NCBI RefSeq assembly: GCF_032854445.1
Contig: NC_088298.1
Span: 1,537,474 to 1,601,473 of the forward strand
Direction of reading: 5' to 3'
DNA length: 64,000 nt
Source of the DNA: Liolophura sinensis
Lineage: Eukaryota; Mollusca; Polyplacophora; Chitonida; Chitonidae
This document shows, piece after piece, positions 1-59,820 of this stretch; positions within the stretch are counted from its first letter, which is position 1, and every line of letters begins with the position of its first letter. Both the position numbers and the translations under genes were made by a program. Under the pieces are notes generated by a model. The model ran no database searches and had not been told where the DNA came from. It was given only the letters and a program-made list of their open reading frames with translations.

Positions 1-1378
1 GTAAACAAACATACCAAGGTGGTCCGATTCACGTAGGATACAAGGTGACACAGATACGAGTAAACAAACATACCAGGTTGGTCCCATTCACGTAGGATAC
101 AACGGGGCACAGATACTAGTAAACAAACATACCAAGGTGGTCCGATTCACGTAGGATACAAGGGGACACAGATACGAGTAAACAAACATACCAGGTTGGT
201 CCCATTCACGTAGGATACAACGGGGCACAGATACGAGTAAACAAACATACCAAGGTGGTCCGATTCACGTAGGATACAAGGGGACACAGATATGGGTAAA
301 CAAACATACTAGGTTGGTCCCATTCACGTAGGATACAACGGGGCACAGATACGAGTAGACAAACATACCCAGGTGGTCCGATTCACGTAGGATACAAGGG
401 GACACAGATACGAGTAAACAAACATACCAGGTTGGTCCGATTCACGTAGGATACAACGGGGCACAGGTACGAGTAAACAAACATACCAAGGTGGTCCGAT
501 TCACGTAGGATACAAGGTGACACAGATACGAGTAAACAAACATACTAGGTTGGTCCCATTCACGTGGGATACAAGGGGACACTGATACACGTAAACAAAC
601 ATACCAGGTTGGTCCGATTCACGTAGGATACAAGGGGACACTGATACATGTAAACAAACATACCAGGTTGGTCCGATTCACGTAGGATACAACGTGACAC
701 AGACACATTTGAACAAGCGTACCAAGGCTGTCCGATTCACGTAGGATACAACTTAACACAGTAACATGTGAAAAAACATACCAGGGTGGTCCGATTCAAG
801 TAGGATACAAGGGGACACAGACACACGTAAACAAACATACCACGGTGGTCCTATTTACGTAGGATACAACTGAACATAGATACACGTAAACAGACATACC
901 AAGGTGGTCAGATTCACGTAGGATACAATGGGACACAGTCACACGTAAACAAACATATCGGGCTGGTCCGATTCACGTAGGATACAAATGAACACAGATA
1001 AAAGTAAGCAAACATACCACGGTGGTCCTATTTACGTAGGACACAACGTGACACAGATACACGTAAACAGACATACCACGGTTGTCCTATTTACGTAGGA
1101 TAGAACTGAACATAGATAAAAGTAAACAAACATACCAGGGTGGTCCGATTCACGTAGGATACAATGGGACACAGATACACGTAAACAAACATCAGAATTA
1201 CCTAGAATACAAAGGGACGCAGACAAACGTAAATAAACATATCAGGGTGGTCCGATTCACGTAGAATACAAAGGGACACAGTCACACGTAAGTAAACATA
1301 TCAGGGTGGTCCGATTCACGTAGGATATAACGGTACACAGATAAAAGTAAACAAACATACCCGAATGGACCCATTCAC
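1..1378. repeat. 59-bp minisatellite upstream of LACC1
   Basis: About 23 tandem copies of a 59-bp unit, each containing GTAAACAAACATACC and ATTCACGTAGGATACAA. The array starts at or before the window edge. In the first ~500 bases two subtypes alternate (ACCAAGGTGGTCCGATT versus ACCAGGTTGGTCCCATT), giving a 118-bp higher-order period; later copies are more divergent. It ends about 65 bases before the splice acceptor of the LACC1 coding exon. The short ORFs inside it are chance readings of the repeat. Confidence 0.95.
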
Positions 1379-31214: not shown

Positions 31215-31985
31215 TAGTGTTGTGTAAACATGGACAGTGCCATAGTCAACGTGAAGACTGCCCTTTCAACATGGACAGTGCCATAGTCAACGTGTAGACC
31301 GCGCTGTCAACATGGACAGTGCAATAGTCAACGTGTAGACCGCCCTGTCAACATGGACAGTGCCATAGTCAACGTGTAGACTGCCCTGTCAACATGGACA
31401 GTGCCATAGTCAACGTACAGACTGCATTGTCAACATGGACAGTGCAACAGTCAACGTGTAGACTGCCCTTTCAACATGGACAGTGCCATAGTCAACGTGT
31501 AGACCGCGCTGTCAACATGGACAGTGCAATAGTCAACGTGTAGACCGCCCTGTCAACATGGACAGTGCAATAGTCAACGTGTAGACTGCCCTGTCAACAT
31601 GGACAGTGCCATAGTCAACGTGTAGACTGCCCTGTCAACATGGACAGTGCCATAGTCAACGTACAGACTGCATTGTCAACATGGACAGTGCAACAGTCAA
31701 CGTGTAGACTGCCCTGTCAACATGGACAGTGCCATAGTCAACGTGTAGACTGCCCTGTCAACATGGACAGTGCCATAGTCAACGTACAGACTGCATTGTC
31801 AACATGGACAGTGCCACAGTCAACGTGCAGACTGCATTGTCAACATGAAGTGTGCCACTGTCAACGTGCAGACTGTATTGTCAACATGACGTGTGCCATT
31901 GTCAACGTGCAGACTGCATTGTCAACATGAAGTGTGCCACTGTCAACGTGCATACTGCACTGTCAACATGAAGTGTGCCATTGTC
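31215..31985. repeat. 41-bp minisatellite, about 18 copies
   Basis: Tandem units of 41 bp around CATGGACAGTGCCATAGTCAACGTGTAGACTGCCCTGTCAA. The rightmost six diverge (CATGAAGTGTGCCACTGTC). It lies about 1.3 kb beyond the supervillin stop on the gene strand. Confidence 0.95.
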
Positions 31986-33251
31986 AAAATGTATGTAGAG
32001 TGCTCTGTCAGCAACTTGTACAATGACCTCTCAGGTTTGTGTGAAACTACGACAGCAGAAGTAAACTGTGTACGTTCCTCAAGAAAAAATCCCCACAGAA
32101 CTTTGCAAAACGCGAGCCTTCTGAAGTTTAACACTGAGAAAACTGTGTTTTGAAAATAGTAAAAAACAGAACAAAAAAAAGAAACAAAACAAAACAAACC
32201 CCCAAACAATCTAAAGAATGAAATGCTCAGAACAAGACATTCCGTCAATGTGGAGCTAAAATTCCATGGATGATGTGATTTGGCCTTGTATAATGTACAC
32301 AGTAATTCACTTGTACCGTTTGTGGAACAGTGGTAAAAAAGCTTTTCAATAATCAGCATTTGTGACGTTTTGAATTGTTACCTGTCGGTGACCATGTCCG
32401 TATTTACAATCATGATCTAAAGCAATGAGGAGACATGAGCCAAGTGTTCTATTGCACATTTACTCTATACATATGTCTAAAATATACAAGCCACACTGTT
32501 AGCAAAACTGGAAGAACCATTGGCCAGCAAAGGATGCTAAATGTCACAAACTACTCAAGGCGATCAGACCAGCGCCGACACACGCTTGTTGTCTCTCTTA
32601 CCAACCAGGCAAGATTGTTTCGGTAATTTGCGTAGGGTTTTACTATTTTCAAACTTCTTCTCCTATTTTTTTTTCTTCTCCTTACACTGCTTTAGAAAGC
32701 CAATTGCATATGTACATGCATAGTCATTTTATACAAATAAAAATGAAAGAAGAAAAAAATGTTTATACAAAATTACTCAATTCAATTCTGAATCTGTCCT
32801 GTACAAAAAGAGACTTTATATACAAAATATACGCGGCAAGGTGAATTCAGTTTCCAATGGCACCACGTTTAACCAATCAAATTCCACAGCAGTAATTTTT
32901 GTTTTCTTAAAATCAGCCAATCACGATCACAGCTTGCTTGTGGTGGGAGTCCAACAAAGATTGGGAGCATATAAAATTGTTGGAGAAGACGGAACGATCC
33001 CCCGATATGGACATTCCCAATAGGGCCAAAATGTACTAACGCAGGGAAGGCTCTGCCTCGGATTTGTAACGCCAACGGCAAATTGCACAATCATAACACC
33101 TACAGTCCATTATATCTTCAGCAGGGGGGTCAGCTTGATCGATGGAAGGCACAAACCTTTATACTGTCAAAATATTTCTCATGTATCACAGACGTTGCGG
33201 AAAGGTCAATAATTCAACTATTTTGCTTATCATTTTTGGTTGTGGTTTTCA
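31986..33251 (-). other. SVIL: Supervillin downstream region / probable 3' untranslated sequence
   Basis: Non-coding sequence on the 3' side of the supervillin stop. I do not see one convincing AATAAA on the gene strand close to the stop, so the transcript end is uncertain. Confidence 0.4.
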
Positions 33252-33338
33252 TCAAAACAGTCCTACTTTTTGTTTTAACTTAGTCTGCTTCCAGCCAGGC
33301 AGCGCGTAAAAGTCATCTTTTGTCATGTTTAGGACCTC
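33252..33338 (-). CDS. SVIL: Supervillin exon 24 (end of headpiece, stop)
   Basis: 29 codons including TGA, after acceptor CTCTTTTCAG, phase 0. It encodes [18 protein letters not shown] and the terminal KVGLF. Trp, the lysines and the C-terminal GLF are the F-actin-binding hallmarks of villin headpieces; the KKEK patch of villin is replaced by KLKQK. Confidence 0.93.
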   Translation of the reverse strand, partial: EVLNMTKDDFYALPGWKQTKLKQKVGLF

Positions 33339-36300
33339 CTGAAAAGAGAGAAGAAAACCAGGTCATTTTAAACACTCAATTTACTTATTTATTTGACTGA
33401 TGAGTATCACACATTGCAGAATTTGCATTTATCTGAGCCGACAGAAATGTTCAAGATTCTTTTCATACATGTTGGTAATCGACAAGTAGTCTTTAACAAA
33501 CGTCAGGCTGCGCAAATCGTTATCTGAAACTTCACACTATTCCTGAAAAAAAACATTTGGAAGTGGGAAATCCGAGTGCTTTGGAGTATACCACCAACCT
33601 TTGCCACCCGACTGACAAACTTCCCCACATGTTACCTTCAGTTGTGCACACCATGTTGGTGGATGAAAAAGTGGTCTTCAACAAATGTTAGAATGCATAA
33701 ATGGTCTGGTAAGCTCCGTTGACCATCAAATCTACGGACAATGAGAGCAAGGCAATCTACAAAATCCCTGCCCAAGACCTAGACTTAACCCATGATGCTT
33801 CATTCAATATGGCTGCCGTTACCTCAAATTCCTCCTCCCGCAGATATGTCTCAAGCTTCAGTGGATCAACGCCTTCAGGTAAGGGACGCTCTTTCAACTC
33901 GTCTAATGTGTACTGGGACTGTGTCAACTTGGCTAGGAGCTCCTCCACAATGATTGTCTCCCCTGGTTTGCGGCCATCCTGATAAAAAAAAAAAGCACAG
34001 TCAAGGTCACAGCCTGTTACAATGTCAGAATAATGATAAATGAATAAATGAGCTGACTCGCAGACTTCGACACCTGACAAGAAGTTGTTACGGTTCAAAC
34101 CAAATTTGATCATATTCAGCCCAGAGCTGGTTTACTTTCCGGCTGTACGAGAGAAGGTCTGCCAGCAACAAGCGGATGGCTGTGGGTTCCCCCCCAGGCT
34201 TTGCCCGGTTTTCTCCCACCATAAAGCTGACCACCGTCGTAAAAGTGAAATATTCTTGATTACGGTGCAAAAACATTCAATCAAATAAATAAATAAATAT
34301 TCAGCCTAGAAGCTCTGTCGGTATCCCATGGACAAGTAGTTTACTCCTGCTGCTATCCCATGATACTGATAATGGATATACAAACAATACCCTAAAACAA
34401 CAATCATAAGACCCATGACAAAACTTCAAACCAAATGTAATTAATTTTAGCTAAGCAGTTCAGGAGATAAAATATGGACACGATTTATAAGGTGGAAAAT
34501 TTATTTATTTCCTTTGTGTTTGACCCCCAACGGAAGAATGTTCACCTATGCGAGCGTTATGATGGTAGGAAACTGAACAGAACCCTGGAAAACCCATGAC
34601 CATCAACAGGTTGCTGAAGACCTTCCCATGTACGACAGTACAGGAAGCCAGTATGGGCTCCAGAAACTCACAGTGATCCCACTGCTGAGAGATTTTTGAG
34701 GATTTCTACTACTGTAGCATGCTAAACACTCTGGCACTGAGGATCCAATATGGTGGACAACGGATAACAGACAGCACAAAGACAAGACATCTCCTCACAA
34801 CGTTTTTATGGGTGGGCGGACCAACCACTGGCCTTTTAACAAACAGCCATATGTGCCTCATTGAGCGCTTACAATCTCACAACGTAAGGCCCCACAAACA
34901 GTGACAGTGGGGAAATCAACTAGTATGTCCAACATGTTAATGACAACCATTAAACTGTAACCCTGACTCTTGTGCAAGTGTAAGACAAGCCTTTTAACCA
35001 CTCGACCTTAGTCAGCTTGCTCTGTAGGGATCACGCAGCACAATATTTGATAAATTCCATGACTTTCAAAGTCTTTTTCATATACAATTCCATGGTCTTT
35101 CCATGACTATCAGTTCAATGACACTCAGCACTTCAGGGTGCTTTATCCTTTATGCACATTTTTGTAAATTTCGCCATGTGAAAATATTTTGCTGTGTTAT
35201 TGTGTGTAAATGACAATTAGAACCTTGCTTCCCTTACATGTCAAGGATTTGTGACCTAAAACAAGTGGTCTATCAACAATCTGGAAAGTATTTTTATAAT
35301 CAATTTCTAGGACTTCTAAAAAAAAATTCAAGGACCTGCACACAAATTCCATAACTTTCCAAGGTTTCCCAGGGCTGTTTTAGCCCCGTCATACCTGAAT
35401 AATGACTTGCGTATTCATAAAACACCACACAATAACATCGACTCCTTACTGTTAGCTCGGTACTATATGAAATATTGCCGATGTGGTGTTAAGCCATACT
35501 CATTCGTTCCTTTACGGTATAGAGTATGAAGTAAACCATGGGCTCCTTACCCTTAGACTGGATTCCTTGGCTTCTTCGTCTAACGTCCACGCTGGGAAGA
35601 GGTTGGTAAATGCAAGAGGCTCCAGACCAGCAAACACCAGGTATGCTGTCGGTGGCTTGGACGGGCACTTCTCTATAACACATCAAACACCAAGGACATA
35701 ATGATAATGGCAAACAGTAGCATGTAGATAGGTATAGATGTCAATTAGAAAGGGATTAAGTAACAGTATTATCGTTAATAGGGATTACACTTTCTGAATA
35801 TTCAGAAAGTGTAATCCCTATTAACAATAATACTGTTAAACAGTAGCACGCTTTCTTAGAAGAACAGCCCTTTAGTTCTTCATGGACTATAAACAATGAT
35901 CTCTCTCGCCATATTACAGCGTTTCGATAACAATGCGAAACAGTAGTATGCGTTCTTTATAGAAGAGCACAGCAACCTGCGGATGGTCGTGGGTTTCCTC
36001 TGTGCTCTGCCTGGTTTCCTCCTACCATAATGCTGGCCGCCGTTGTATAAGTGAAATATTCTTGAGTTTGGCATAAAACACAAATCAAATAAATAAATAA
36101 AAGCACTTCAGCTCCTTATGGACCACCAAAAATGATCGCTCTTTTCACGAATAATTTGGGGGCTACTTGTTGATCTTTTGACATGCCAATATTCACGTTT
36201 AGATAAAACTATCCAAAACCCAATTCTGCTTCATTAGTTCTCTGTTTTCTATATACACCTCATATTAGAACTGGAACATTGACTCTATCATGATACTACA

Positions 36301-39300
36301 AAATCAAGTCACATTGCACATCAGTCTATTGGCGCAGTCTTACATGAAGTCTCTTCTCCTAAACTGTACATGACCAACTCTGGGACACTGCCCAGTCATG
36401 AGGAAAATTGTACACTATTAACACGAAATCTGAATTGTTACGACATGAGTATCTCAATCTATCATCGACATTGCCCATTTATTTCAAAGGCGTATTTTCA
36501 GGCCAGTTTGTTGTGGATAATAAATTTTTTGGAATACCATGTTCATCAAATAATTGATCCCATATATATATATATACATATATCTAATATTCAACTGGTT
36601 GTTATTTGCATCTTGTTTAAGTAATACACTGTAGCCTTTCATACATGTGCCTTATGTTCAGTTGAGCAATCTTTGCGCTCAAATTCATCCGACATTGCAC
36701 AAAAAATTGGTGCAGTCTTATATAAAGTCTATGCTTTTTTATACATGCAGTGCTGTATTTCAGCACAATCATGCTTTATACTCTCTTCCAGTAATAAAGT
36801 GCGGCATATAAACAAATACACAAGTATGACTCAAGTTCTGTGTCAGCCCAAGTTCGTGCAGTCCTACATGAAGACTATACTCACCCTGGCAGTACTGTAG
36901 CGTGGTTTGCATGGCACAGCGGCGGTCGGTGTTAAATCTTGCCTGTGCTGACCCAGTGTGGACATTCTCGCTGTCTTCACCACCCTCTGGCCACCAGCCC
37001 TGCCACAAGTACACCTCCTCATGGTTGTCCAATAAAAACAAACCTACAAATCACAAGACAAAATATTCTTGTTTTGTAATCTGATAAAGAATGAAAAGTT
37101 TACTTAAATGATTGTTATTAGACACTATAATACAAAATTTTCAACGACAAATACATTTTATACTAACATATATTTTGTATTTGTTAATACTACATCTAGT
37201 CCACTGCTTGATGAAAATAATTTTGTCAGTATGGTTGGCACAATCATCCTGCCTTCCAAATAAAACAAATCAACTTTCTAAAATCAGCGAAACTCTATGA
37301 CACACAAAATTTTAGCTCATACAACACAAACACAAACCATGAAATAAATACTAATAAAATATTCTAAGCATTTCTGAGAGTTTTAATAACATAACGAGTA
37401 TAAGGGCTTCTGAAACGTTCACCAGCACAAGGTGACAAAAAGGCCACATGTTCAAATCCATCTCACTCTGTTTCAGCTGAATCTTTTACGCCAATATTTG
37501 TGGGGTACCGGGTGAACTCACCTGGCTGTGAGACCTTGTAGAGATCGGACTGTAGGAATGGCATGGGGGTGACCAGGTCGTGGCAGCGGGTGGGGTTCAG
37601 GATCTCCACGGCCTCAAACACCCCAGCCACGCTGTTCATGTAGAACAGCCGAGGGGTGTGGCGGATTGGTTTTCCTGTACATGTACAAACCACAGTTAGT
37701 CTATTAGTTAAAATGTCACTAAATGATAGGATAAGCACACATACAAAGGGTAAATCATAATGGGCAAGGTTTTAGCAATCCTTTGTGATGTCTGTCTTAC
37801 AGCTGTATAACACTGTTACGGTGACTGTTTTGTTACAGGATATGGGAATATACACATCCTTCTTGTGACTGTTGCTGTCCAATGAAAAGACTATTTTGTC
37901 TGATGCCAGCTAAACTCATATATAATTTACCATACGTAAAAATGTTCACATATTATATAATGGTTCACCGACATTTGGCAAGCTAATGACAAACTTTTTG
38001 TCTGACATGCACATATTATGGAACAAAAGAGGTTTGTAGCTCAGTCTCAGCAGCCAGCGTTATTGCTGGCTGTGTAAACTATCTTTAATTGTTCTGTCGT
38101 TAAAGAGGCTATGTCAGAGATTTTGACAAAACACATTTTGTTCTTATTTTGGAATAATAGCCCAGTAGATGTACAAGCCGAGCTTTGTTGTACTTCTTCT
38201 AGATCTTTGTTTAAAAAGGCTACATCAATGATTTTACCCCCCAAAAAATCAAAATTTGCTATAAATAGAATCAAATTTTCTTTATTAACCAAGACTAGCT
38301 CCAAACTGTGAGACTCCAGTACATCTCTGACTTGTATCTGTACTATTATGTTTAGACTTCAAAAAATAGTTTGACAAGTCTGTAATGTGACTGACTTCCT
38401 AAATTCTAGGAACTTTATTACAGATTCTGAACAGTCACACGGCACAGATGAGGTTGGTATTTTGTGTAAGGTAAATATTTGTGCTATTCTAAAATAATAG
38501 CAACAATTTGACTAAATTTGCACTGATCAATTTTGTCCCGAAAGTCTCCAGTAAAGGCCCTTTATTTAATCTGTGCAGGTACACGTACCCTAATTCTTCC
38601 ACCTTTTCAACGACCAACATTCTGAAACATTCTGTATGAAGATTATAGTATATAACATTTTACCTGAGCTGCTTAATATCAACAGCAATAAATAAATGAA
38701 GAATCTGTTGGTGTACCTTTGAGAAGGGAGTGATACAGCTTCCTGTCCCTAGTCCTCATGGCGCTCCAGAACTCAGACTTCTCCGAGCCTTCCTCCAGTT
38801 CCGTGATCGTCACGCTGGCCTTGTTATGAAGCCCTACCTCCAGTGGGCATCTGCCAATACACAAGACAGCATTCAGAATTCATACATGCCATATTCATAA
38901 CTTTTATTTATTCATCTGAATGGTGTTTCACAACGTACCCAAGAATATTTCACTTATACGATGGCGGCCAGAAAAAAGGTCAAGGTCGCTGAAAATCAAT
39001 AGGTTTCTCCCTCATGCCAAGGTGTAAGTGTGGTGAAAGTGTGGTGTAAGTGTGGTGTAAGTGTTGTGTAAATTTGGTGAACTTGGGCTAAACTGTTCTA
39101 GAGGCAGAGCATTCACAAGGATATGGACAGATGGACAGCGCCCCTTACACAATACCCCCTTGGTCAATATTGGCCCAGGAGTAAAAAAATGATGATATAT
39201 TTGATTAGTATGCAAATGAATTTGAGTATAAATGTGAAAAGCCAAAACGCACATGGTAAAGTAATCATTTCCGCAAAAGTTTTTGAATTTCCTATGAATA

Positions 39301-42300
39301 GGTTCAGTGATATAATGGACACAGATTGGGGCAGACAGAGGAAAAGACAGGCGCAAACATGCCAATACCCCTTAAAAGATAGTACTAGACCAAATGTATA
39401 TATGCAGTGATAAACTATCTCACAGAAAGTTTAAAAAGCATAACGTTTCATTGTTGTAATGCTGCACATATGCTGGCATATCTCACTTCAAAGTAAGCCA
39501 AATCATCCACAAAAGAGACAATCAAAAGCACCGCCATGTTATCACATTTAATTAATCAGGCGCGAGTTACTTCAATAGTCTGAGGACACAGCTGTTTCTA
39601 CTTACATCACCCTAACCCTCTTTCACCTTGTTTGTTTGTTTTAACAAGTCACATTCAATGGCCTCGTAAGAATTCTTGATTTAAATCTCTGTGGATGTTC
39701 AGATCTGTTTCCCCCCTTCTTCCTAAACAACTTGAAGTTATATTGTTTGATGTGTTTTCTTTTAACTCAAAGAGATTGAGGAGTAAAAAACTCCAGTCAG
39801 GACTTACTTCTCCTTAAGCTTGTTGGCTGCTCCTATGGCCAGCTTCCTTGTGTACGATGGAGACTTGGCACCATGCCAGATGTACAGGAACCCTGTCTTA
39901 ACATTGAGCAATAAAAAGGACGTCCTACTGCGAAGATTCTCAGCCCCTAGAGGCACCTCCATCAGGCACATTTCGTTTTCGAGTTCGTTTCGCACCAGGT
40001 ACAATCGGTAAGCACCCTGAGTGTTCGTTTCGGCCTCTTCTCGTTTGCCAATGTGAACGATGGTTTGTCCCTCAAAGAGATTCAGAAAACATGGAGGTTC
40101 TTTTCCCTGAGAAACCCGCACCTGGAAAAATGCAAGAAAAAAAATTATGACATTTTACTGCCTTCAGGAATGGAATAACCTCAACTTAAGTTTAAATGAA
40201 GAGTTCAGGTGTAAAAGCAGATATACGCCATTCATGCCGAGACCTGAACTCTTCAATTATTGAACCTAAGTTTAAATGCTGAATTAAAGCACTGAAGTAT
40301 AGTTTACATGCTAACCATACATTTAGGCTGAATGGCTTACTTCATGCGTAGAGTTTAAATACTGAATTAAAGCACTGAAGTATAGTTCACATGCTAACCA
40401 TACATTTAGGCTGAATGGCTTACTTCATGCGTAGAGTTTAAATACTGAATTAAAGCACTGAAGTATAGTTTACATGCTAACCATACATTTAGGCTGAATG
40501 GCTTACTTCATGCGTAGAGTTTAAATACGGAAGTAGATCTCAACAGAGTTTATTTTCACTTCTCAATCATGTTTTTGTCCACAATCTTCTGTTTTTTTAA
40601 AATATAATCTTGTAAAAACGTGACAGATTTATCTCGCTGACCCACTGAACAGCTTAGTATAATAAATAAACAAAGTAACCCTGAAGAAATTCATTTTGAC
40701 GGTTTCAATATTTCGACTTTAATTAAGTCATCCTCAGGAGTATTGTGACAGTTTTTGTGACGATGAATTCACCATGACATTCCATAATCCAAATACTACA
40801 AGCCACAGCCTTTTGTACTCATTATAAACTGTCCAGATCAGCATGGCTCTTTCTGGCCAAACATACAACAACAGTTGCATATATGTATACAAAATAACAG
40901 AAAAACAGAAGACAATCATCGCTGTGTATTTACTAGGATGCCTTTCACTTTCAGATGAAAAACACTTTGTAGTTCACCCTTCATACATAAAGGTTTCTTT
41001 TCCTCATACCTGTGGGCCTCTTTCCTCATCCAACTCCACGGTCATCAATGCAGACGCACCTTTCTCGTTGACAGTAGAATTATGTCCCTGCCAGAAGAAG
41101 TAAGCACACCTTTCTCGTCCTGTCAGCGAGTGACGAGCAGCCTGACCCTTTAAAGTTTTCATACCTGTTGGGCAGCGCATAGGCATATCAGTGTACAGTT
41201 ACCATGGCAACAAGGCACAAAGGAAAATACACACATGGTAATGCGTAAATTATTGCCCTCATTACATATGCTTAACAAATATCTGCTGAGCGGTATCATT
41301 TATTTTCCTGTATTTTTGACCCTATTCTTCAAAATTTTTCAGCCATACAATGGGTGTCAGTTTTATGGATGGAAGAAACCAGAGTGCCTGTGGAAAACAA
41401 CCAACCTTTGACAAGTTACTGAAGAGCTTCTCCCCACTACTTATTGTCACCAAGGCCTCACGGCCTTGAGAACAAAGGAATCAACAAACCTCCTGTTGCA
41501 CAGTATAGCCAGAATGACATACAAGGCACGTACGTGTCCCCATCACTGAACTGCCTGTAGCTGTGTTTGGGCAGTTGGAGCGATTGTACTCCACGTCGGA
41601 CAATACAGACAGAATGCCATACAGGTCTGTGATCATGTACTTCCATGACACCCTGTACGTGTCCCCATCAATGAACTGCCTGTAGCTGTGTTTGGGCAGT
41701 TGGAGCGATTGTACTCCACGTCGGACAATACAGACAATCAGTGACAGGCAGTGTTTGGGCAGTTGGAGCAATTGTACTCCACGTTGGACAATACAGACAG
41801 AATGACATACAGGTCTGTGATCATGTACTTCCATGACACCCTGTACGTGTCCCCATCAATGAACTGCCTGTAGCTGTGTTTGGGCAGTTGGAGCGATTGT
41901 ACTCCACGTCGGACAATAAAGACAGAATGACATACCTGAGGCTGTGATCATGTACTGCCAGCGCACCACGTACGTGTCTCCATCATGGAACTGACCGTAG
42001 CTGTGTTTGGGAAGTTTGGAGTGGTCGTACTCCAGGACGTGCCAGACAATGACATCCAGGGTGAGGATGTCAAACTCTCGCCGCAGTCCGTCCATCTCCT
42101 CCACCCTGCCAAGCAAACAAACACGAATGTTTGCAAAGGCGTTTATTCAAGAATATTCTGAAGGCATTACTCAGACTGACTGATCAAATTAGACTTTCTG
42201 TGAGGCCCTGACACTGGCCAATCCAACCAATGTAGTTTTGTCTCCAGACTCAAATCAAAACTGTGCTTAAATTGTGCTGGAAGTCACTCTTTCACATGCA

Positions 42301-45300
42301 ATGAGGTTGAGTAATTAGGGTACTGTCATTTTAATTATTTATTGTATTTAAGAATTTACCAAACATAACCAGTCCTAATTAAATTTCTCTATTTCATTAT
42401 AGTTTAACATCATACTCAAGGAATTTTTTAGTTATGTGATGGCAATCAGTTTTTATGGGTGAAGAAACCAAAGTGCCAAGGGTAAACCACTGTCCAGTGG
42501 CAAGTAACTAATGAACTTTTCCAAGCAGGACGTACATAAACGCACAATCCACAAAATCCCTGAGCGCTGCCTGTTTTGAGCGTGATTGGTGTTCAATAGC
42601 TAAGCTAATACTACAGAAATGAATAAAACAGCCTTCTCAGAGGACTACTTGCTCTCCTGTAAATACGATGTATATATATATATACATACAAGTGAAAAAG
42701 CGTTATGCAAGAAGTACTTGATTGGTGGTGGGGGGGGGGGGGGGTGGGGTTGTAACATTGTAATTCCTGAACTGATTACCACATAAAATAAGACAAATTT
42801 AAGTAGCACAAAACTTCACAAGAATCCTTGAAGTACATTCACAGCAGTTGTAGTCTTGTCTGTAGATTCTAAAGTACATTAAGGAAGGTAACTTTATCAC
42901 TAAAAATGTAAATGGCACAAAAATTACTCACAGACAAGTCTGGATTGTGGAGAAGATGTGTGGAAATTTTCATAGCAATCAGTCCAGTACTTTAAGAGAA
43001 GATGCGCAGACAAAATCATGTCTGCAGACAGTCATAGACACAGACAAGGTGTTTTCAACATCCACCCCTCTCCCCTGCTTATACATACGGGAACAAATAT
43101 TGAGGAAAGCTATTTTACATGTACATACCACTTATCTCCTCGTCCAACATGGCTGCCTTCAAACAACATGGTGACCGGCGCTTTGTTCACAGGTATGAGG
43201 AGTTTGGCATCATAAGGTTTGAGATCACACTCCACCTGCTAAGGTCACAAAACACACATCTCATGTTTACCTCATCTTTTTTCGGTATTCAAGATTTTTA
43301 TGACTTATTTTTATATTTGTATTAAAATAAACTATTTTGTTAATGAACAAACAGCCGTACAAATACCTTCAGGGCAAAGCTTTCTGGCGTTTTACTGCGC
43401 ATTGTAAATCGCGATGATTCCGGCCAATCAAAAAACTTCTCCTTGAACAGCGTTGTTTCCATGTTCTGGTTGACTTTACCAAATACAGCCCAAGATGGCC
43501 GCTGAGAGGATTTCTTTGGCGGTGCACCTTCTTCTTCATCTGAAATACAGATAGGAATTTGTTTTGTTTCATAAGAAAAACAAAGAAATTTGTTTCTTTC
43601 ATTTTTGATTGATTTATTTATTTGTTTGATTTGTTTCCCCTCATAACGATGGCGACCAGCATTATGGTGGGAGGAAACCCACAACCATCCACAGGCTGTT
43701 GGCAGGCTTTCCCCTCGTACGGCCCTTTCATTTTTAAGGTATATTTTATATTTCTTAATATCCCATCTATTTTATGGTTATTTTCTATCTATGGTAAATT
43801 TCAGCAACGATGTCACTGATGGAACATGGGTCAAATTAGCACTCTCCATTCCGACTCTTCCACCTGCAGAATTGTTACAATAGCTATCAAGGTTGATATC
43901 ATGACAGTTGATAACTCACCCCTGAGGCCTGAGATAGGGTTGACGGGACACATGCTATAATCATAGCCCTTCTCCCAGAGCTGGGTGGCCAGCTTCATCC
44001 CCATTCGTCTCTGCTCCATGGACACCTGGTTACCCTGCCAGACGTACAACTCCGAGCCAAAGTCAAAAACCAAGACCTGAACAAGTAAATCCAGCTCATT
44101 ATGAATGCCTTAAACACCAATATGGGTACGTGTGAATCAGGTGAATCAAAGTGGTTTTTCTCCTAAACTCCAATACCTGAACAAGTACATCCAGCTCATT
44201 ATGAATGCCTTAAACACCAATATGGGTACGTGTGAATCAGGTGAATCAAAGTGGTTTTTCTCCTAAACTCCAATACCTGAACAAGTAAATCCAGCTCATT
44301 ATGAATGCCTTAAACACCAATATGGGTACATGAATGCCGTAAACACCAATCAAGTGTTAAAACCCCAATACCTGAACAGGTAAAATCAAGTCTTCAACAC
44401 TAACACCTGTAGAGGTGAGTCTGGGTCATTAATAAAGACTTCAAGATTAACAAATACACAAGACAGTCCTATCTGATAACTCTCAAGTAAAGAATAAAAA
44501 AAAGAACCAAATTTATTGCCCAAGTGAAGCACAGCTGTAGGTACAATAGTAACATGACAGTAGTAAAGTTTACAGGTGGGCAAACAACGTGATATCACGG
44601 GCGCATATAAAAATGGATGGGAGATGACGACACATACCTCCTCGGGTTTTAACATCTCCACCTTGGGGATCTTGCCCCAGTATTCCTCGTATGGGACTAA
44701 CGTGTTATTGCAGACTTTATAAACCATGTTGGTTTCCACGATGAAGGCTTCGTAAGCCTCGTCTTCATCAGGGGGGCCACACTCTGGAAATAAAGCATAT
44801 GTATGTATGAGTGGGGTTTAATATCACAATTTTTCAGGCATATGATGATGAGGAGTCATTGGATGCACGTACATATATTGTGTCTTCTTGTGGCAGGGCG
44901 AGTCCATGACTGCCAAACTGCAGCTACCACCTAAGTTTCATGCTGAAGACACCAGACATGACACCCCACCCTGTCACATTATACGGAAAACGGGTCAACC
45001 AGTGATGTCTCCTTGCTATAACTTCTCAGTGCTTAGCGCCAAGCAAGACAGCAGCCAACACCACATTTAAAGTCTGTAAAGTATGACCCGACCCGGGTTT
45101 GATCCCGAGATCTCCCTACTCTGAGGCAGACGCTCTAACCATTAGGCCACCGAAACGGTTGAAATAAAGAGTTTCGATATTTAAATATTTCCTCTGAGAT
45201 AATACTATTACAACCCCTTATTCTGTATTATTCAAACACAACTAGTAAAGGTCATCGTAGGGGAGTGGGGGCCTCGGTGGCTCAGTCGGTTAGCGCGCTA

Positions 45301-48300
45301 GTGCAGCGTCATGACCCAGGAGCCTCTCACCAATGCGGTCGCTGTGAGTTCAAGTCCAGCTCATGCTGGCTTCCTCTCATGGGAAGGTCTGCCAGCATCC
45401 TGCGGATGGTCGTGGGTTTGCCACGGGCGGTTTCCAACCACCATAATGCTGGCCGCCGTCATATAAGTGAAATGTTCTTGAGTACGGCGTAAAACACCAA
45501 TCAAATAAATAAATAAATAGTACGGGAGTGGAAACTGTACACTGATTTAAGTATCGGTACATGAAGGCAGGGGTTGAAATTAACTAGAAAATCTTGGTGT
45601 TTTAGGACTCAAGTTCATCTAAACGTTGGCCATCTAGTGAAAAGCTCCATTTCATTACATTATTGTATTACTGTATGAGTATAAATGTGGGTACAGTCAG
45701 TATAAATCATAGGCCAGTCAAATACGCTAGTGCTTCTCTTCAGCAAGACCAAAATTCCACCAGCCTCTGAATGGTGGATCACCGTTAATTTCCAGCCCAA
45801 ACAAGGAATAAAATGTTAAAGCAGACCAACATATTTCACTTGTCACGCAAATGATCTAGGAACCTCTCCCCATGCATTTACTGTGAGCTCAAGTCCAACT
45901 CACACTGGTTTCCTCTCCACCATGGGGAGGTCTGCCAGCAACCTGCAGATGGCACAGAGTTTACCCCAGGCACTACTTGGTTTCCTCCCACTATAATACT
46001 TACCACCATCGTATAAGTGAAATAGACTTGAGTATGGCTTAAAACACCAATCAAATAAATAAACACATAGACAATTCTTTCATTGGTCACCGACATTCTT
46101 CCATCCAAACACCCAATCAGAACAACCATATTTTATAATCATGTTCAAATTCAACCAATCAGAAGAATGAATGCTTATGACTTATCCAATCATAAGACGG
46201 GTACCACAGAAAGTCTGCCAATGACAACAGCTGTACCTTGGCACTCTTCATCGCCTTCCAACGCGGACCAGAAGTTTTTATTGGCTACGTGTCTCATCTT
46301 CTCGTCTTCCACGATAATAGGTGGCGATGATTCACGATAACCCAAATCCTTTTTCTGAGAGACGAATTGGGCAATGTCCGCTGCCTGAGAATGAGAAAAA
46401 AGACAAATTGGGCAATGTCCGCTGCCTGAGAATGAGAAAGAAGACAAATTGGGCAATGTCCGCTGCCTGAGATTGAGAAAAAAGACAAATTGGGCAATGT
46501 CCGCTGCCTGAGAATGAGAAAAAAGACAAATTGGGCAATGTCCGCTGCCTGAGAATGAGAAAGAAGACGAATTGGGCAATGTCCGCTGCCTGAGAATGAG
46601 AAAGAAGACAAATTGGGCAATGTCCGCTGCCTGAGAATGAGAAAGAAGACAAATTGGGCAATGTCCGCTGCCTGAGAATGAGAAAGAAGACGAATTGGGC
46701 AATGTCCGCTGCCTGAGAATGAGAAAGAAGACAAATTGGGCAATGTCCGCTGCCTGAGAATGAGAAAGAAGACAAATTGGGCAATGTCCGCTGCCTGAGA
46801 TTGAGAAAAAAGACAAATTGGGCAATGTCCGCTGCCTGAGAATGAGAAAGAAGACAAATTGGGCAATGTCCGCTGCCTGAGATTGAGAAAAAAGACAAAT
46901 TGGGCAATGTCCGCTGCCTGAGAATGAGAAAAAAGACAAATTGGGCAATGTCCGCTGCCTGAGAATGAGAAAAAAGACAAATTGGGCAATGTCCGCTGCC
47001 TGAGAATGAGAAAGAAGACAAATTGGGCAATGTCCGCTGCCTGAGAATGAGAAAGAAGACAAATTGGGCAATGTCCACTGCCTGAGAATGAGAAAGAAGA
47101 CAAATTGGGCAATGTCCGCTGCCTGAGAATGAGAAAGAAGACAAATTGGGCAATGTCCGCTGCCTGAGAATGAGAAAGAAGACAAATTGGGCAATGTCCG
47201 CTGCCTGAGAATGAGAAAGAAGACAAATTGGGCAATGTCCGCTGCCTGAGATTGAGAAATATAACCACCAAATTATGGGAATTTAGATCCTACGATAAAA
47301 GAATACATAGAGCAAGCTGGTTTTCCAAGCTGTGTTGATGGCGCACAAAGTGAAAGGAGTAAAAATAAAGCTGAAAATCCACCTTCTTATTTTTGTCACA
47401 TCCCAATATTTGTAGGATTTTCTTAATGTTTGAGGCTTTATCATGTAAATATTTTGTCAAAAGAAAAAAATTGCTGGTGCAAGTCCACATTTGCCACCGA
47501 GTAGATAATTTCTAAGTTTTATTTATGAAACATTTTCAAAACTTTATGTCACAAAATTTGTACTCACTCTGGCCTTTTCAATGACATTACTAAACTTCCC
47601 ATTCCAATTCACGACCCTGTCTGGTCTGATCAGAATGTATGAGTCGCCCCTGTTTACAGACGAGACGTGTGGTTCAACCAATCGTGTCTGGACATGGCGC
47701 CGACCTAAACCAACAACCATATTACACCGGAGTTAGGTAATGAAATGCAAGTATGGAATGAATGACATCTCACGCCCACACAACCCGATCAACAACACAT
47801 ACACAACATTCTCACTGCAGCTGACATATCCTGGATTCACTTTATCTATAAGACTGGTTTTCAATCATATAACAGTACTCTAATTTTTTTGGTCTGCATG
47901 TTTATGATAGTGGTTTCCCGAATGTGCATTAAAATGTCCATACAAAGGGGGCATAACTCCTGCATTGGTCACTCCAGCAAACAGGGGAGACAATCTGGTG
48001 TGCATGGACAAAGTTCTCCTCTTCAAAATCCTATAACCTGGTTGTTGTAATCTAAATTGCACTAAATATGCTGTAACTCAATGAGATACATCAGATTATT
48101 CATTCTAGTTTCTTTGCCATTAATTTTCACATTTCATATTAATTTTCATTTTTAGTCCGATTTCTTCATTAAAATTACCTTTTCCTCCCATGATAATGCT
48201 GGCTATATAGAAATATTCTTCAGCAGCACATAAAACCCCAATCATATAGGTAAATCTAACAAATAAAATTACCTTTAATATGCAACAACATGAGATCCTT

Positions 48301-51300
48301 ATATGGTAAAAATTTATCAGCACCCCCTGGTGTCTGTGCCTTGGAATCTTTGGTTTTGCGCAGTTCGATGTTGAAACTCTCCGTGGATTGGAGTCCCTTA
48401 ACCGCAGCCTCAGCCAACATCACCTGGGCTGACGAAGAATCCTTGGCAACTATGCACAAATGTTCAAACAAACACAAACATTCAGATGTCTGACACAGTT
48501 ACCTGATTTGTTTAATTTGATTTTTTTTTTTAAATTTGAGTTCTATTCATCTTTGAAAGGTGTTTTGACATTTGATTAAAAGTTATGATGAAATTTTATT
48601 ACATTTTTTACATTAAAAAGATAAAAAATATGTGAAATTTAGGGCAAACACAGCTGCTACTAATTTCAGTTTTATCAGTGATATTTATTGTGTTGTAACA
48701 TTCAAGAAACCAGGTTTTATCCAAATCAACCACACGTTATTTGTTGTCTGAAACTATTTTAAAATTTTCTGATTTAATTTAAAACTGATCCAACAGAATT
48801 CTTGAAGTATTGCTAAAGCAATGTGTATCCCCCACTCGCTTGAGGCATCAGAATAAAGGATATGTCACAACAGTCCACAACAGAACAAAAATGGCTGTAA
48901 ATTTGTGTGAAAAAGTGTATGAAACAGTCCAAAACTTAAACTTGCTCTGTAACCGGACTCTGTGAAGCCTTGTTCGAAGATTGAATTGAGATCAACAAAC
49001 TGTGTAAAAAACTAAAAAGACGTGAGAAAATCTTGGTCCAAGGGAACAGTTCTCCTTGATTCCACATTATCCTTCTCCACAGTTACTCACAGCCTTCCCG
49101 TTTGAGCCTCTTCAGTTCCAGCTCAGCCACACCCGTTCGGAACTCGGTGTATGTCTGCTCGATTTCCACGGACATTGTCTTCAGCGGGTTACGATTCTGA
49201 GCAAGATGGCGGCGTTTGGGACGAATCCTTCTAGCTGGAGTCAGTCTGTAAGGGGAGATAACAAGCATGACAAGATGTCAGTGACTAAATGGATCTTAAA
49301 TTATTTATTTGAATAGAATTTAACAGCACAAGCAAGAACTTTTCAGTTTTGAGCAGCGATCCAAGTTATGCAAGGGCCTCAGATATGGCACTTTTGAACA
49401 AATCAAAAGGGTCTGGGGGGGGGGGAGGGGGGGGAGTTGGGGTCCAACAATTTTCATGTCTTTTGCTTACATAAAAATGGCAAAACTGAAAGCTGTGTGA
49501 ATCACAAGGATGCTCTCACTATTCAACCCCTGCATGCATGAAAGAAAACTGTTTACCAAGAACTTCCAAAGACCTAATACTAAAAGTATTCTCACACTTT
49601 CAAGGGTCATTAAGTTTAAAGGAGAAGAAAAGATAAAACTGATGCCAAAATCAGATGAAACAACATCAAAATATGGTCTTTTACTATTTTTTTTTTGATT
49701 TTTCTTTCCAGAAGAATAAGTTATTTGAAAATATTTTTTGTACGGTGGGTATTTGGGACATCATTTCGGTATTTATTGTCGTTGCATAATAATGTTCTAA
49801 ATAAAATGAGGTGCTTGCATTCTACATTTATCTGAATGTAAATTTGTTTATATCCAAACATATGTATGCATTTAATCGGAATTATGATAATATTTATGAA
49901 TATATTAAAAAACAATTATTTTCTAGTGTCTTTTTCTTTTTACATAAAAATCGAAAAGATGAAGACCACATTTGCGACTAACTTTCCACACTATTTCATC
50001 TGAACTTCATGTCATTTTCATGTTTTCTCCACCTTTAAGTACAAACCTTCGTGTGTGGAGATTAATGGGTAGAATTTTGATGCGTGTGCAGATAATTTAT
50101 CGGTCCACTTTAAACATAATGCAATGTGTAATTAACATAGACAGATCAAGGATTTCAAGGTCAAGAGGGAACTGTGTATCTTCTGCAGCTGGCTACCTTC
50201 TGTATATCAGATTTGAGAATCAGGCAAATTCAGCAACATAGTCCTGGGAACAATTTTACGTTCTTTACGGTGATTTAGCATTTTTCTCCACCTCTACGTC
50301 TCAGTAACTTACACATCTTCTGCCTTGAGGAAGAGGTGATTAAAATCGTCAAGCGACACATCGATCTTCTCCTCCTCCAACCCTTGCACCTTCGAGAAAA
50401 ATGTGTTAAAACTATCCTCGCCAAGGTCGGGTAACTCTACCGTCATGGTTCGGAATGCATCCTCAACCTCACGGTCCTCCTCGCCACCGACCCTTGTGAT
50501 CACCGTCTTGGACGAGGAAGAGGTCGAGGATTTTGAGACAGAGACTATCGGAGGGCCTGGGAACAGAATCAGGAACACTGCTACTTACTTCACTAAGCAA
50601 ATACGTTTCTATTTTAATTCCTTTTTTTTTTTTAAAGATTATATTTGTTTCTTGTTTAATGCTTGTTCACTCATACAATGGCAGTCAATGTTCACTATGA
50701 AGTAAACTGGTGTAAACCACCTGACCTTTGACAAGTTACTGGCAATCTTTCCCACATGTGACTAACAGACCTGCCAGTTTATAGGATGAAAACCTCACAA
50801 TACGGACATTACAATTTAGTACGTATACAAGAATATGCATATGCTCATGACTGGGATGTTTATTCATTGATGCTGTTTATGACAGTGCCAATCATGACTT
50901 ACATCAAATAAACATTTTCACACCTGTACAGAGGTAATCTCACCTTCAGATATAAGCTCTTTGGGAATGGGGATTCTCTCTCTGGAGGGCGACTGTAGTG
51001 GGGAGCCATCCTCTGAGGGGGCAGAGTCTCCTTTCAATCAAACAAATAAGACACGGTGATGTTATTTGCTTATATATGCATAGGTATGAGGAGCCATCCT
51101 CTGAGGGAGCAGTCTCTCTTGTCAATCACGCAAATAGGACATGGTGATTGACATGGTGATACAGTATAATATACATTTATGATCAGGTATGAGGAGCCCT
51201 CCTCTGAGGGGGCTGACTCTCCTGTCAATCAATCACACAGCTCCGGACAAATGTACTCATCTAAGGCCGTCCTTAAAACTATGTTCTTTGTGCTCAAGCT

Positions 51301-54300
51301 GATACATGCATATGAATACAGGTAGGAAAAGCTATTCTCTGACTGACAGACAATGCATAAACAGGCAGGAGGGGCCATCCTTTGTGGGCACAGTCTTCTG
51401 TCAATCAAATACACACAACCCAGAATGACTGACAGATAATCTGCAAATACAAATACACATGTAGAGAGGGCAAACATATCCAAAACTTCAAGGCTGTCTG
51501 CAACATGTGTAACTCCTTTAAAAACGTCAGAAATCATTTTTAAACTCTGAATTCTTTCTTTGGTGTAAATGTGGGAGAGTCACCTATTTTCTTACCTTTC
51601 CCAAAGGACAGCTCTCTCTTTGGTAATCGCCTCTTTCTGGTGGATACAGGGCTATCCAAAACAATACCTGCAGCCACAAAACAGAATGTAAGTTCACAGT
51701 CCTAAAAAATACTTTCCAAAATAGCAAGAAACAATAAACAGTATTTATAGTATTCATAGCGATACACTGTTAATTCCTATTTGGAAAAGCATCGCTCTTG
51801 TAAATGAGACAGCAGATACTGCTACTTTTTTTGTATTTTTAGCAACTTTAAGTCAGGAAATTTGTATGATACACTCTGCAAAAGAAAAAGTGTAAAGAAT
51901 TCTGGCATTTGACTGCCTGTAATTCATCGAAAAAGAAATCAAATTGGAAAATAAAGACCCTACGTTTCAGCTATACGAGTGGCCCCGTCAGTCAGTCAAC
52001 TTCTCTAATACCGTATCATTCGACATAAACCATTCATGTGACTCACAGCGCAAGACAACACAAATCCCTATGCTGTCAACATTCTGTGGGACATCAAAGC
52101 TTTGCACATTTGCTTACAAGTCAAAACATGCTGAGCCTTACCATTTTTGCTCTGCTTGCCCTCAACTGTGAAGGCTTGAGCATCTTTCTCCTCCACCCTA
52201 CTTGTCCATCTCATCTGGGACTCGCCTAACTTGGACAGTCTGTCGGCAATGCTGTGCGGACGTTCCAGGAGAGGCCCCTTCTTCACTCTCATCTGGACAT
52301 CTTCAGGAAGACCCAACTCAGGACGTATTCTTCTTTTCCAGTCTTCTTCACCGCTCTTCTTAAGCAGGTTCAACCTACAGTACAAGGTAGAAGATATCAC
52401 TTGTTCACAAACATTCCTCATTGTCAGCTACTAAAGGCGACCAGATTGGGCTGATGGGGACAGAATGTCTGGCTCGCCCTAAATGAGGAGGGAATTATCC
52501 TTTCATGTAACTTGTTTTCGTTGTGAGATCTCCAGCCAAATCTAGTCTATCAGACCCACTTCAATGAATTCCCATACGCCTCCACAGTGAATTATTTACA
52601 ATTTTCAAGGGCAGATGGAATTCGTTTATACATACACAAACCGATTATATTTATGTCTGTGTATCTTAATAGGCATTTCAGTGAGTTCATTAAACACCGT
52701 AAAAAAGGTTAAATTAGGTGTATTTAAGTGATTTCATAACCACTGAAGGTATCATACTATACATCCGTGGTTGGAGTGGGTCTATAGTTGTAGTGATTGA
52801 CAGGTTCCTTGATTGTGATTTGCATACTGTACCAACTCTGCATTTGTTTATATTTGAACACTCGGACCCTTATATAGATTGATGCCCCAATCTTCACACA
52901 ATGAATGCTCTCATCAGCGATCATCAGAGCTTGCACTAGTAAGGTGTAATAATATTAGAGTGTACAAGTATACAATTTAACGGAGTGATTTTATTCCTAC
53001 CCAGCGCAAACGAATGGGGAGTCTTGCATATTTAATACAGAAAGCTATAGTGTGGCCAGAACCTACATTGTTTTGGTGTCTCTGAAAAATTCTATTGGCC
53101 CTTTTGTGTTGTATAAGAATTTTAAAATGATTAATAAACAGGATCATAAATTCACCATTTTACTTTGTGAAAAAAAATCACCAAATATATATGTACATGT
53201 ACAGTATACAGATCGAACAAAGAACTTCAACACTGCTTCAAATGCATAATCTTCACAGCAAATTTACCAGTTTTTACAAGCATGGTTCACTTCCTCAAGA
53301 GGTCAATATCACCCTGACAAGTGTATTTTTGTAGTTGACAAGCTGGTATATGATCACCCATTACGATGTATCATCTGTTTGAACGATATTAAAGACTTGC
53401 TTCGGGAAGCTGTAAAATATCCTCCATACCAAGAGCTTTTTTTTTTTTGTTTGTTATTTTCTTTTTAATTTAATCAGCGGTGAAATGCAACTTTAATACT
53501 CTGTACATGTTAGATTAGTATATGGATTTTACACGGTAAAGTGTTCAGCTAACAGTGAACAAACTGTAACAAAAATTGTTGTCCTCACAGCTGAGTTAAG
53601 CTCCCAGCTGTTAGGCAGCCAACCTTCAGACTGTAGCAGAGAGGCAGCTTGGCCAGGAACGAATAAGGAAGCAGTCTAGCTGATTGGACATACAAGACAG
53701 CAGGCATATCTTCTAACTCAAGGTATGTTAACGCACTGGACACTGTCTGTTGGCTGTCCGTTCTGACATTTCAGCTCTTGCCTGACATGTATTTATAATA
53801 CATTTCAATTCAATGCCGCCAGTGTCGCATCATTATCCCTGGGCAAATCCCTTATTTAACTTCTAAATTATTAGTTCTTTGTAATAATTTAAAATGTTTT
53901 AATGTAAATGATGAGATTACATGGTCCTGTAAATATAACTCTGTAACTGCCTTCAGTTAGAAGAGGACTTGTCCACATGAAAGAAGACATAGATTTGTAT
54001 TGTAGAGTTAGTTAAATACTATGTTCTCAGTTGTCACTAGAAATACTAAAATGTTAAGTGAAAGAAAATAAAAGTGACAGTAAAATGGAAAATCCGAATA
54101 TCGGATATAATTCATCGCTCTAGGACCACACCTAGACTGTTACCTTTCTGCGATAGACCCGCTGTTGGTCTTCGTTAGCTCCCCTGATCCTGTGGCCTCT
54201 GCCGCCTCTTTCTCCTCGGGAGTGATTGGCTGTGTGTGGTGGCGTGATGCCCCGTACTTCATCTTCCGCTGTTCTGGCGTTTTCTCTGGCGCCCCAGTGT

Positions 54301-57300: not shown

Positions 57301-59820
57301 TTACACCATGTTTATGCGGGAGCCAGGAACATCATGATCTACCTGACGCTTCCATAAGTGCCCTATTACCAATGGGTGCTGCTGTATACTTTCTAATAAT
57401 ACCACGTCACAGAAGTTTAGTGCAGTTGTCCTTAGTTCATTTGTCCTTCCCCTCAATACCTATACTCAAGCATGAGTGTACTACTCGTGTAATGCTTCAG
57501 CATGAGTACATTACTCATGTAATGCTTCCGCATGAGTGTATTACTCATGTAATGCTCAAGCATGAGTACATTACTCATGTAATGCTTCAGCATGAGTATA
57601 TTACTCATGTAATGCTCAAGCATGACTATATTACTCATGTAATGCTTCAGCATGAGTATATTACTCGTGTAATGCTTCAGCATGAGTATATTACTCGTGT
57701 AATGCTTCAGCATGAGTACATTACTCATGTAATGGTTCAGCATGAGTATATTACTCGTGTAATGCTTCAGCATGAGTGTATTACTCATGTAATGCTTCAG
57801 CATGAGTGTATTACTCGTGTAATGCTTCAGCTTGAGTATATTACTCGTGTAATGCTCAAGCATGAGTACATTACTCATGTAATGGTTCAGCATGAGTGTA
57901 TTACTCATGTAATGCTCAAGCATGACTATATTACTCATGTAATGCTTCAGCATGAGTATATTACTCGTGTAATGCTTCAGCATGAGTATATTACTCGTGT
58001 AATGCTTCAGCATGAGTGTACTACTCGTGTAATGCTTCAGCATGAGTGTATTACTCGTGTAATACTCCAGCATGACTATATTACTCATGTAATGCTTCAG
58101 CATGAGTATATTACTCATGTAATGCTTCAGCTTGAGTATATTACTCGTGTAATGCTCAAGCATGAGTGTATTACTCATGTAATGCTCAAGCATGAGTATA
58201 TTACTCATGTAATGCTTCAGCATGAGTACATTACTCATGTAATGCTTCAGCATGAGTACATTACTCATGTAATGAGTATATTACTCATGTAATGCTTCAG
58301 CATGAGTGTATTACTTGTGTAATGCTTCAGCATGAGTAATGCTTCAGCATGAGTGTATTACTCATGTAATGCTTCAGCATGAGTGTATTACTCGTGTAAT
58401 GCTTCAGCATGAGTGTATTACTCGTGTAACGCTTCAGCATGAGTGTATTACTCGTGTAATGCTTCAGCATGAGTGTATTACTCATGTAATGCTTCAGCAT
58501 GAGTGTATTACTCGTGTAATGCTCCAGCATGACTATATTACTCATGTAATGCTTCAGCATGAGTATATTACTCATGTAATGCTTCAGCTTGAGTATATTA
58601 CTCGTGTAATGCTCAAGCATGAGTACATTACTCATGTAATGCTCAAGCATGAGTACATTACTCATGTAATGCTCAAGCATGAGTACATTACTCATGTAAT
58701 GCTTCAGCTTGAGTATATTACTCATGTAATGCTCAAGCATGAGTACATTACTCATGTAATGCTCAAGCATGAGTACATTACTCATGTAATGCTTCAGCAT
58801 GAGTATATTACTCATGTAATGCTTCAGCATGAGTGTATTACTCATGTAATGCTTCAGCTTGGGCCCCATGGCTACCATTGCACATGTCGTAAGGAAAATG
58901 GCAACTCATAAAACTTTTATCATCAGAAGACACCTCATTCTACATTATTGCATGTTCTTCATGTACGTCTCCATGAAAACAGTGCTGTGAACAATACATA
59001 GGGTAAACCATCAGCTTTCCACTGAAGCAGTTGGCTGAAGTACAAGATTAATGTTTAACCACAATTACTCACTTTTAACATGTGGAGAGATATATGTAGG
59101 ACAAACTATGAAACCTTGAGTTTCTCCTGAAACAAAATGAATTGCACAACCTATTTCATATTTCTAGTTACGCCCACGGATGGGTTCGTCTCAAAATGAT
59201 ATGTAATGCAGTTCAAACCATATGATATATATCATTATCTTACTTTCCGATAAGTTTAATAAAACAACTAATTTATGCTGGTGAAATGGATCAAGGCAGA
59301 AATCATTATGCTGTATATAAAAGCTCAGCGTTTGATTAGTCAACAAAACTTTGACACTTTGAAGCCTAGAAAAAAAGGTTACAACAGGTAGAGTTTTTAC
59401 GGTAAAATACCCACACCAGGAATTATATGGTCGAGGGAGGGGGGGGGGGGGGAGATCAATTTTCATCAATTTCTCCATTATCATTTAAATTATCACTACC
59501 ATAAAACCACCATATAACCACATAAAATTACTTCTGCTGTGGAGCAGGCAACATTACATGGGAACTGCCAGCATTGATATAATAAGGTTTAATAGGCCTC
59601 CATCCAGTCTGATTTATGACTGTCTGGCTTTTAAACCTCCGGTATTTCTAACCAACTATTCATCTCTCCCTTATTTAACATGCTTTAATACTAACATGGT
59701 CACACAAGTGTCCCCCGAATATTTTTTACGAAGTCATTGTTGTACACATCTGTAAATGCTGTATTTCACTTACATGTAAAGTTTATATACTGCTAGAAAC
59801 TCATACTTGAATTGGACTTC

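Follow-up and report, generated by a model that had tools for sequence, protein, structure and literature searches.

How does the spliceosome treat an intron that ends in 22 near-identical acceptor sites, and how does such an intron come to exist? The question is raised by a gene on the minus strand of the stretch of Liolophura sinensis DNA analyzed here (64,000 nucleotides, referred to as the window). The animal of the published assembly, GCA_032854445.1 (PMC11068029), was first given as L. japonica, a name that its authors later corrected to Liolophura sinensis (PMC12441733).

A repeated acceptor in the supervillin gene

On homology, the minus-strand gene of the window is the supervillin gene of this chiton (Table 1). 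A tblastn search with a supervillin probe sequence orders its C-terminal exons from 47705 to 33255, and the exon pair that flanks the array, when joined, matches the Pfam gelsolin repeat above the curated cut-off (E 1.2e-06); the two results agree with the assignment to supervillin made in the first-pass annotation. From 48449 on, 16 exons can be joined in a single open frame, which includes the junction at 46384 and closes with a stop at 33252; by sequence, this marks 46384 as a productive acceptor. The frame does not join cleanly across the first three mapped exons, where the donor of exon d is weak and exon e joins out of frame, and the ends of these three exons are consequently uncertain. 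A second period-41 array with an unrelated unit (18.7 copies, 31223-31987) lies just past the mapped 3' end of the gene.

Table 1. Supervillin features (window positions) and arrays at exon edges in the window and at other loci (named by L number)
Feature	Position	Strand	Period x copies	Remarks
Supervillin, 19 mapped exons	33252..52374	minus		clean frame joins for 16 exons from 48449 on
Supervillin exon before array	47568..47704	minus		donor GTGAGT at 47567 (47568/47567)
Supervillin minisatellite	46360..47259	minus	41 bp x 22	TRF and direct count; pyrimidine tract, CAG and first 24 exon nt in each copy
Supervillin exon after array	46237..46384	minus		148 nt, beginning with the exon part (24 nt) of the last repeat copy
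Array copying the acceptor of exon 44076-43920	44070..44329	minus	100 bp x 2.6	2 extra in-register acceptors
Degenerate array at exon 42105-41936	41563..41924	minus	188 bp x 1.9	3' half of that exon copied in part
L024 acceptor array			59 bp x 12	extra in-register sites in 8/12 units
L024 donor array			138 bp x 11	extra in-register sites in 10/10 units
L024 donor array			50 bp x 44	extra in-register sites in 43/43 units
L024 donor array			45 bp x 16	extra in-register sites in 15/16 units
L010 acceptor array	830-1281		109 bp x 4	extra in-register sites 3/4
L034 donor-side array			about 30 bp x 12	gelsolin-family exon
L048 donor-side array			22 x 10	Helicase_C exon; donor ambiguous among in-register GTs
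L049 donor-side array			39 x 7	Helicase_C exon
L052 donor-side array			69 x 4	Helicase_C exon

The intron between the two exons that flank the array is 1183 nt long from its donor to the last acceptor and 322 nt from its donor to the first. TRF places the array at 46360-47259 (period 41, 22.0 copies, 97% matches), and a direct count finds 22 CTCAG/GCAG acceptors, intact in 22/22 units, with their last intron bases running from 47246 to 46385 at a spacing of 41 throughout. Each unit straddles the intron/exon border, with 24 nt of exon start and a 17-nt tract ending in CAG. These counts bear out the first-pass description of the repeat, with its exon share, put there at about 25 bases, now fixed at 24 nt. 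Direct reading also confirms that the acceptor at 46384 is the sole copy that continues into the exon body.

As a repeat the array is far beyond chance, with 13 of 861 positions off consensus in the 21 units that precede the exon body. These variants fall in four columns; 3 of the variants lie in the part of the unit that comes from the exon and 10 in the part that comes from the intron. The last copy carries TTC and the first copy has a deviating tract, and both variants are also found in the interior. Copies 14 and 17 also contain the TTC of the exon body, and the TTTCTCAATCTCAG of the upstream flank reappears after copies 9, 11, and 19. The seed of the array probably derives from this junction, an origin that fits the recurrence of variants of both edges inside it. 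When the 632 contigs of the genome were searched with the 181 bases that surround the last copies, the best candidates scored gave nine matches, all of them in the 41-bp array. An imported repeat is rejected as the origin on the best-candidate matches of this search and the variants inside the array.

Arrays at other exon edges

The supervillin array is no one-off. Two further arrays of the same gene touch or abut exon ends (Table 1). Besides the in-register acceptors of the 100-bp array, there is an additional acceptor-like site at 44371. The 188-bp array begins 11 nt past the donor of its exon, and an in-register donor is present in 0/2 of its units.

Tandem arrays are dense in this genome. 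Those with a period of at least 15 cover 37,287 of 180,000 bases in 18 stretches of 10 kb (L009-L026), which were placed at hand-chosen points, three of them on small contigs, and they make up 16.5% of the window. In the repeat table of the assembly report, the entries for simple repeat, microsatellite and RNA amount to 0.08% and unclassified repeats to 14.04% (PMC11068029), which suggests that a large minisatellite fraction of the chiton genome has been left unnamed there. At such a density, some arrays must land on exon edges. When the 14 arrays of the window are rotated, they cover a mean of 6.1 of the 37 mapped exon edges, against 2 observed (3 within 15 bases), so that there is no enrichment at edges in the supervillin gene. 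One of the window's arrays, a 30-bp array at 57469-58858, has a near-palindromic unit and is open for hundreds of codons on both strands.

In 86 arrays of the window and the 18 stretches, we looked for in-register sites that resemble splice signals and followed up the outcome by direct reading. A minus-strand WD40 gene at 2874-9711 of L024 has four exon-edge arrays, and the exact AACACTGAGGT is present 41 times in the 50-bp array among them. This gene is PAK1IP1-like by its best match (E 2e-15) to a probe sequence, with Pfam WD40 matches that lie below the cut-offs. The presumed exon in L010 has no Pfam match, and use of its upstream acceptors would lead to stops in all frames. Because the arrays in L024 and L010 were found by seeking repeated splice signals, they are uninformative on frequency. 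A long 39-bp array at 5976-8986 of L027 has a unit with the donor-like AATCAGGTAAG. In all, 12 exon-edge arrays are listed from several genes, 4 on the acceptor side and 8 on the donor side, two of the latter starting 8-11 nt past the donor. Extra in-register sites occur in 11 of the 12, the exception being the 188-bp array of supervillin.

An estimate of frequency comes from 31 exons chosen by Pfam match alone, which comprise all 11 gelsolin loci found and 20 Helicase_C exons. The latter are 20 of the first 29 of 76 matches, 8 of the 29 having been removed for an open frame longer than 170 aa and C6:33323592 having been missed by oversight, with the remaining 47 left aside. Exon ends are uncertain at some of the 11 gelsolin loci, and L043 and L046 encode one and the same stretch and so are not independent. 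Edge arrays are present in 4 of the 31 exons, all on the donor side. Flank arrays that stop short of any exon edge occur in L030, L031, L035, L038, L040, and L047, with a weak one in L050. Among 54,000 random 140-bp pseudo-exons, 3.5% have an edge array, or 4.5% of those that are not mostly covered by arrays. The expectation is thus 1.1-1.4 of 31 versus the 4 observed (P 0.023-0.048), an excess that is suggestive at most. The existence of the class in the chiton genome is not in doubt, and if the rate from these 31 exons holds, extrapolation gives thousands of edge arrays genome-wide.

Probable acceptor choice and growth of the array

By its boundary-spanning units, their intact splice signals, the terminal place of the productive junction, and the recurrence of such arrays in several genes at both kinds of boundary, the supervillin array is a mirage, the name given in lancelets to minisatellite-like duplications of intron-exon boundaries. 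We consider it probable that a border-straddling duplication expanded here, in a minisatellite-dense genome, and that splicing falls mostly on the copy that continues into the exon body. A tandem duplication, some 41 bp long, would first have straddled the intron/exon border, and the duplicated unit would then have expanded and been homogenized through slippage or unequal exchange, leaving extra copies that are all now intronic. Repeat number may vary among alleles. The spliceosome would mostly take the copy attached to the exon body, and the other 21 acceptors would leave with the intron. The body-joined copy is probably preferred because it alone pairs across an exon of normal size with the downstream donor; acceptor choice by exon definition of this kind is likely from what is generally known of splicing. 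The first-pass annotation had proposed repeat-length-dependent isoforms, a sink for splicing factors, or a neutral array with splicing fixed on the last copy. The neutral option is the best supported of these, and the isoforms and the factor sink are left with no positive support.

Reading frames at the other arrays bear on this choice. In 9 of the 11 arrays with extra in-register sites, no frame is open from the body-side site to the farthest one. At L049 one frame is open that far, and the coding frame hits a stop within the first unit. The 41-bp supervillin array, alone among the 11, has all three frames open over that distance. The argument from stops is strong for distal sites only, since 8 of the 11 arrays have one or more frames open as far as the nearest extra site.

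It is unlikely, in our judgment, that the extra acceptors act as decoys that divert some splicing, such that frame-shifted or inserted transcripts lower or tune supervillin by repeat number, whether directly or as a factor sink. The 22 strong acceptors in register speak for this reading. The extra copies score 6.5-11.6 versus 11.6 for the used copy in a small weight matrix with the scored site left out (matrices built from 17-19 acceptors and 18 donors, all of the supervillin gene alone), and being nearly as strong, they count against a silent array. Since all supervillin frames are open, nonsense-mediated decay at the array would not clear transcripts that use upstream acceptors. Human genes offer possible parallels: boundary repeats are reported to alter splicing in some of them (PMC2812944), and the title of Lievers 2001, as cited in PMC2630376, links the CBS 31-bp VNTR to reduced CBS activity. 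However, the lancelet arrays are reported without aberrant mRNA (PMC3087553, PMC3902484), and other genes of the chiton genome bear arrays that are similar or longer (50 bp x 44).

The array might instead be an expandable coding module in which acceptors that lie a multiple of three units upstream would each add blocks of 41 residues, to a maximum of 287, inside the gelsolin-like region. The first-pass annotation had noted an open frame through the array, and this holds for all three frames, with no stop in the 861 bases between the first and last acceptors. Because 861 = 3 x 287, the most upstream acceptor is also in frame. Such openness is nevertheless weak evidence, since 18.3% of 20,000 shuffled 41-bp units are likewise open in all three frames and only 12 of the 123 possible single changes in the unit create a stop. 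The 13 variants are too few to inform on coding selection in the array. An inserted block would also break into a gelsolin repeat, and none of the other 10 in-register arrays is shown to be open to its farthest site in the coding frame. We regard the module as very unlikely; if it were real, protein length would be set by allele length.

An assembly artefact is scarcely credible and is rejected: the assembly represents one haplotype from 14x HiFi coverage with haplotig purging (PMC11068029) and the array is a single locus in it, but a mean HiFi read of 8,347 bp (PMC11068029) spans the 0.9-kb array, its internal variants are ordered, and comparable arrays occur in several other genes.

Rows of many near-identical acceptors or donors, repeated across several genes of a single animal, amount to a natural experiment in spliceosomal choice among equal sites, and the arrays also bear on intron growth and on intron gain by duplication of junctions. 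More noteworthy than the single supervillin array is how abundant the class seems to be in this chiton. A bolder extension, in which splice junctions are preferred minisatellite seeds in chitons, thousands of duplicate sites are ignored by the spliceosome through exon definition, and, with the array open in all frames, a share of supervillin transcripts carries 41-residue blocks in an allele-dependent number, strikes us as distinctly improbable.

Relation to known boundary repeats

Mirages are described from the globin, Adh3, and other loci of the lancelet Branchiostoma (PMC3087553), and PGBD5 and TnC are additional lancelet examples (PMC3902484). The supervillin array shares with them boundary-spanning tandem units, many with AG or GT, and the terminal position of the authentic junction in the cluster. 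Lancelet mirages repeat acceptors or donors, with units of 10-72 bp at Adh3. According to the authors, their RT-PCR and the Adh3 data suggest that regular splicing is not disturbed; somatic instability has also been reported at Adh3, and the authors propose mirages as a route to new introns (PMC3087553). The chiton array differs in being from a mollusc, in having all frames open, and in its 22 copies, as compared to 6 and 3 units in the haplotypes of BflGb6 (PMC3087553). The lancelet cases come with RNA and length data; the chiton array is described from its sequence.

Two human CBS repeats are comparable. The VNTR c.1444_1467+7 has 16-21 copies of 31 bp (PMC2630376) and resembles the chiton array in its boundary-spanning unit, which by the name of the VNTR contains 24 exon nt, in its similar copy number, and in its single-base unit variants. 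However, it sits at a donor rather than an acceptor, and it varies between people. The 844ins68 duplication likewise repeats an intron/exon junction in tandem, here 68 bp at the intron 7/exon 8 junction, and includes some of the exon. It has one extra copy only, and its distal copy is strongly favoured (PMC2630376). Minisatellites with units of about 30 bp also occur at exon-intron boundaries in human segmental duplications, where they average about 4 copies and are reported to alter splicing and form new introns (PMC2812944), and thus provide a counter-example to strict neutrality. In Drosophila, tandem duplications that carry proto-splice sites have given rise to introns (PMC2891723). Those cases similarly involve tandem duplication with splice signals, but there exonic duplicates became introns, whereas here an existing intron grew.

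The literature searched on minisatellites, exon-intron boundaries, tandem repeats, and mirages yielded no molluscan mirage, and by term search a comparative genome paper on chitons mentions neither minisatellites nor tandem repeats (PMC12005716). Repeats of this kind are known from lancelets and humans, where splicing is normal according to most reports, and the chiton array adds to a class that is apparently frequent in the chiton genome.
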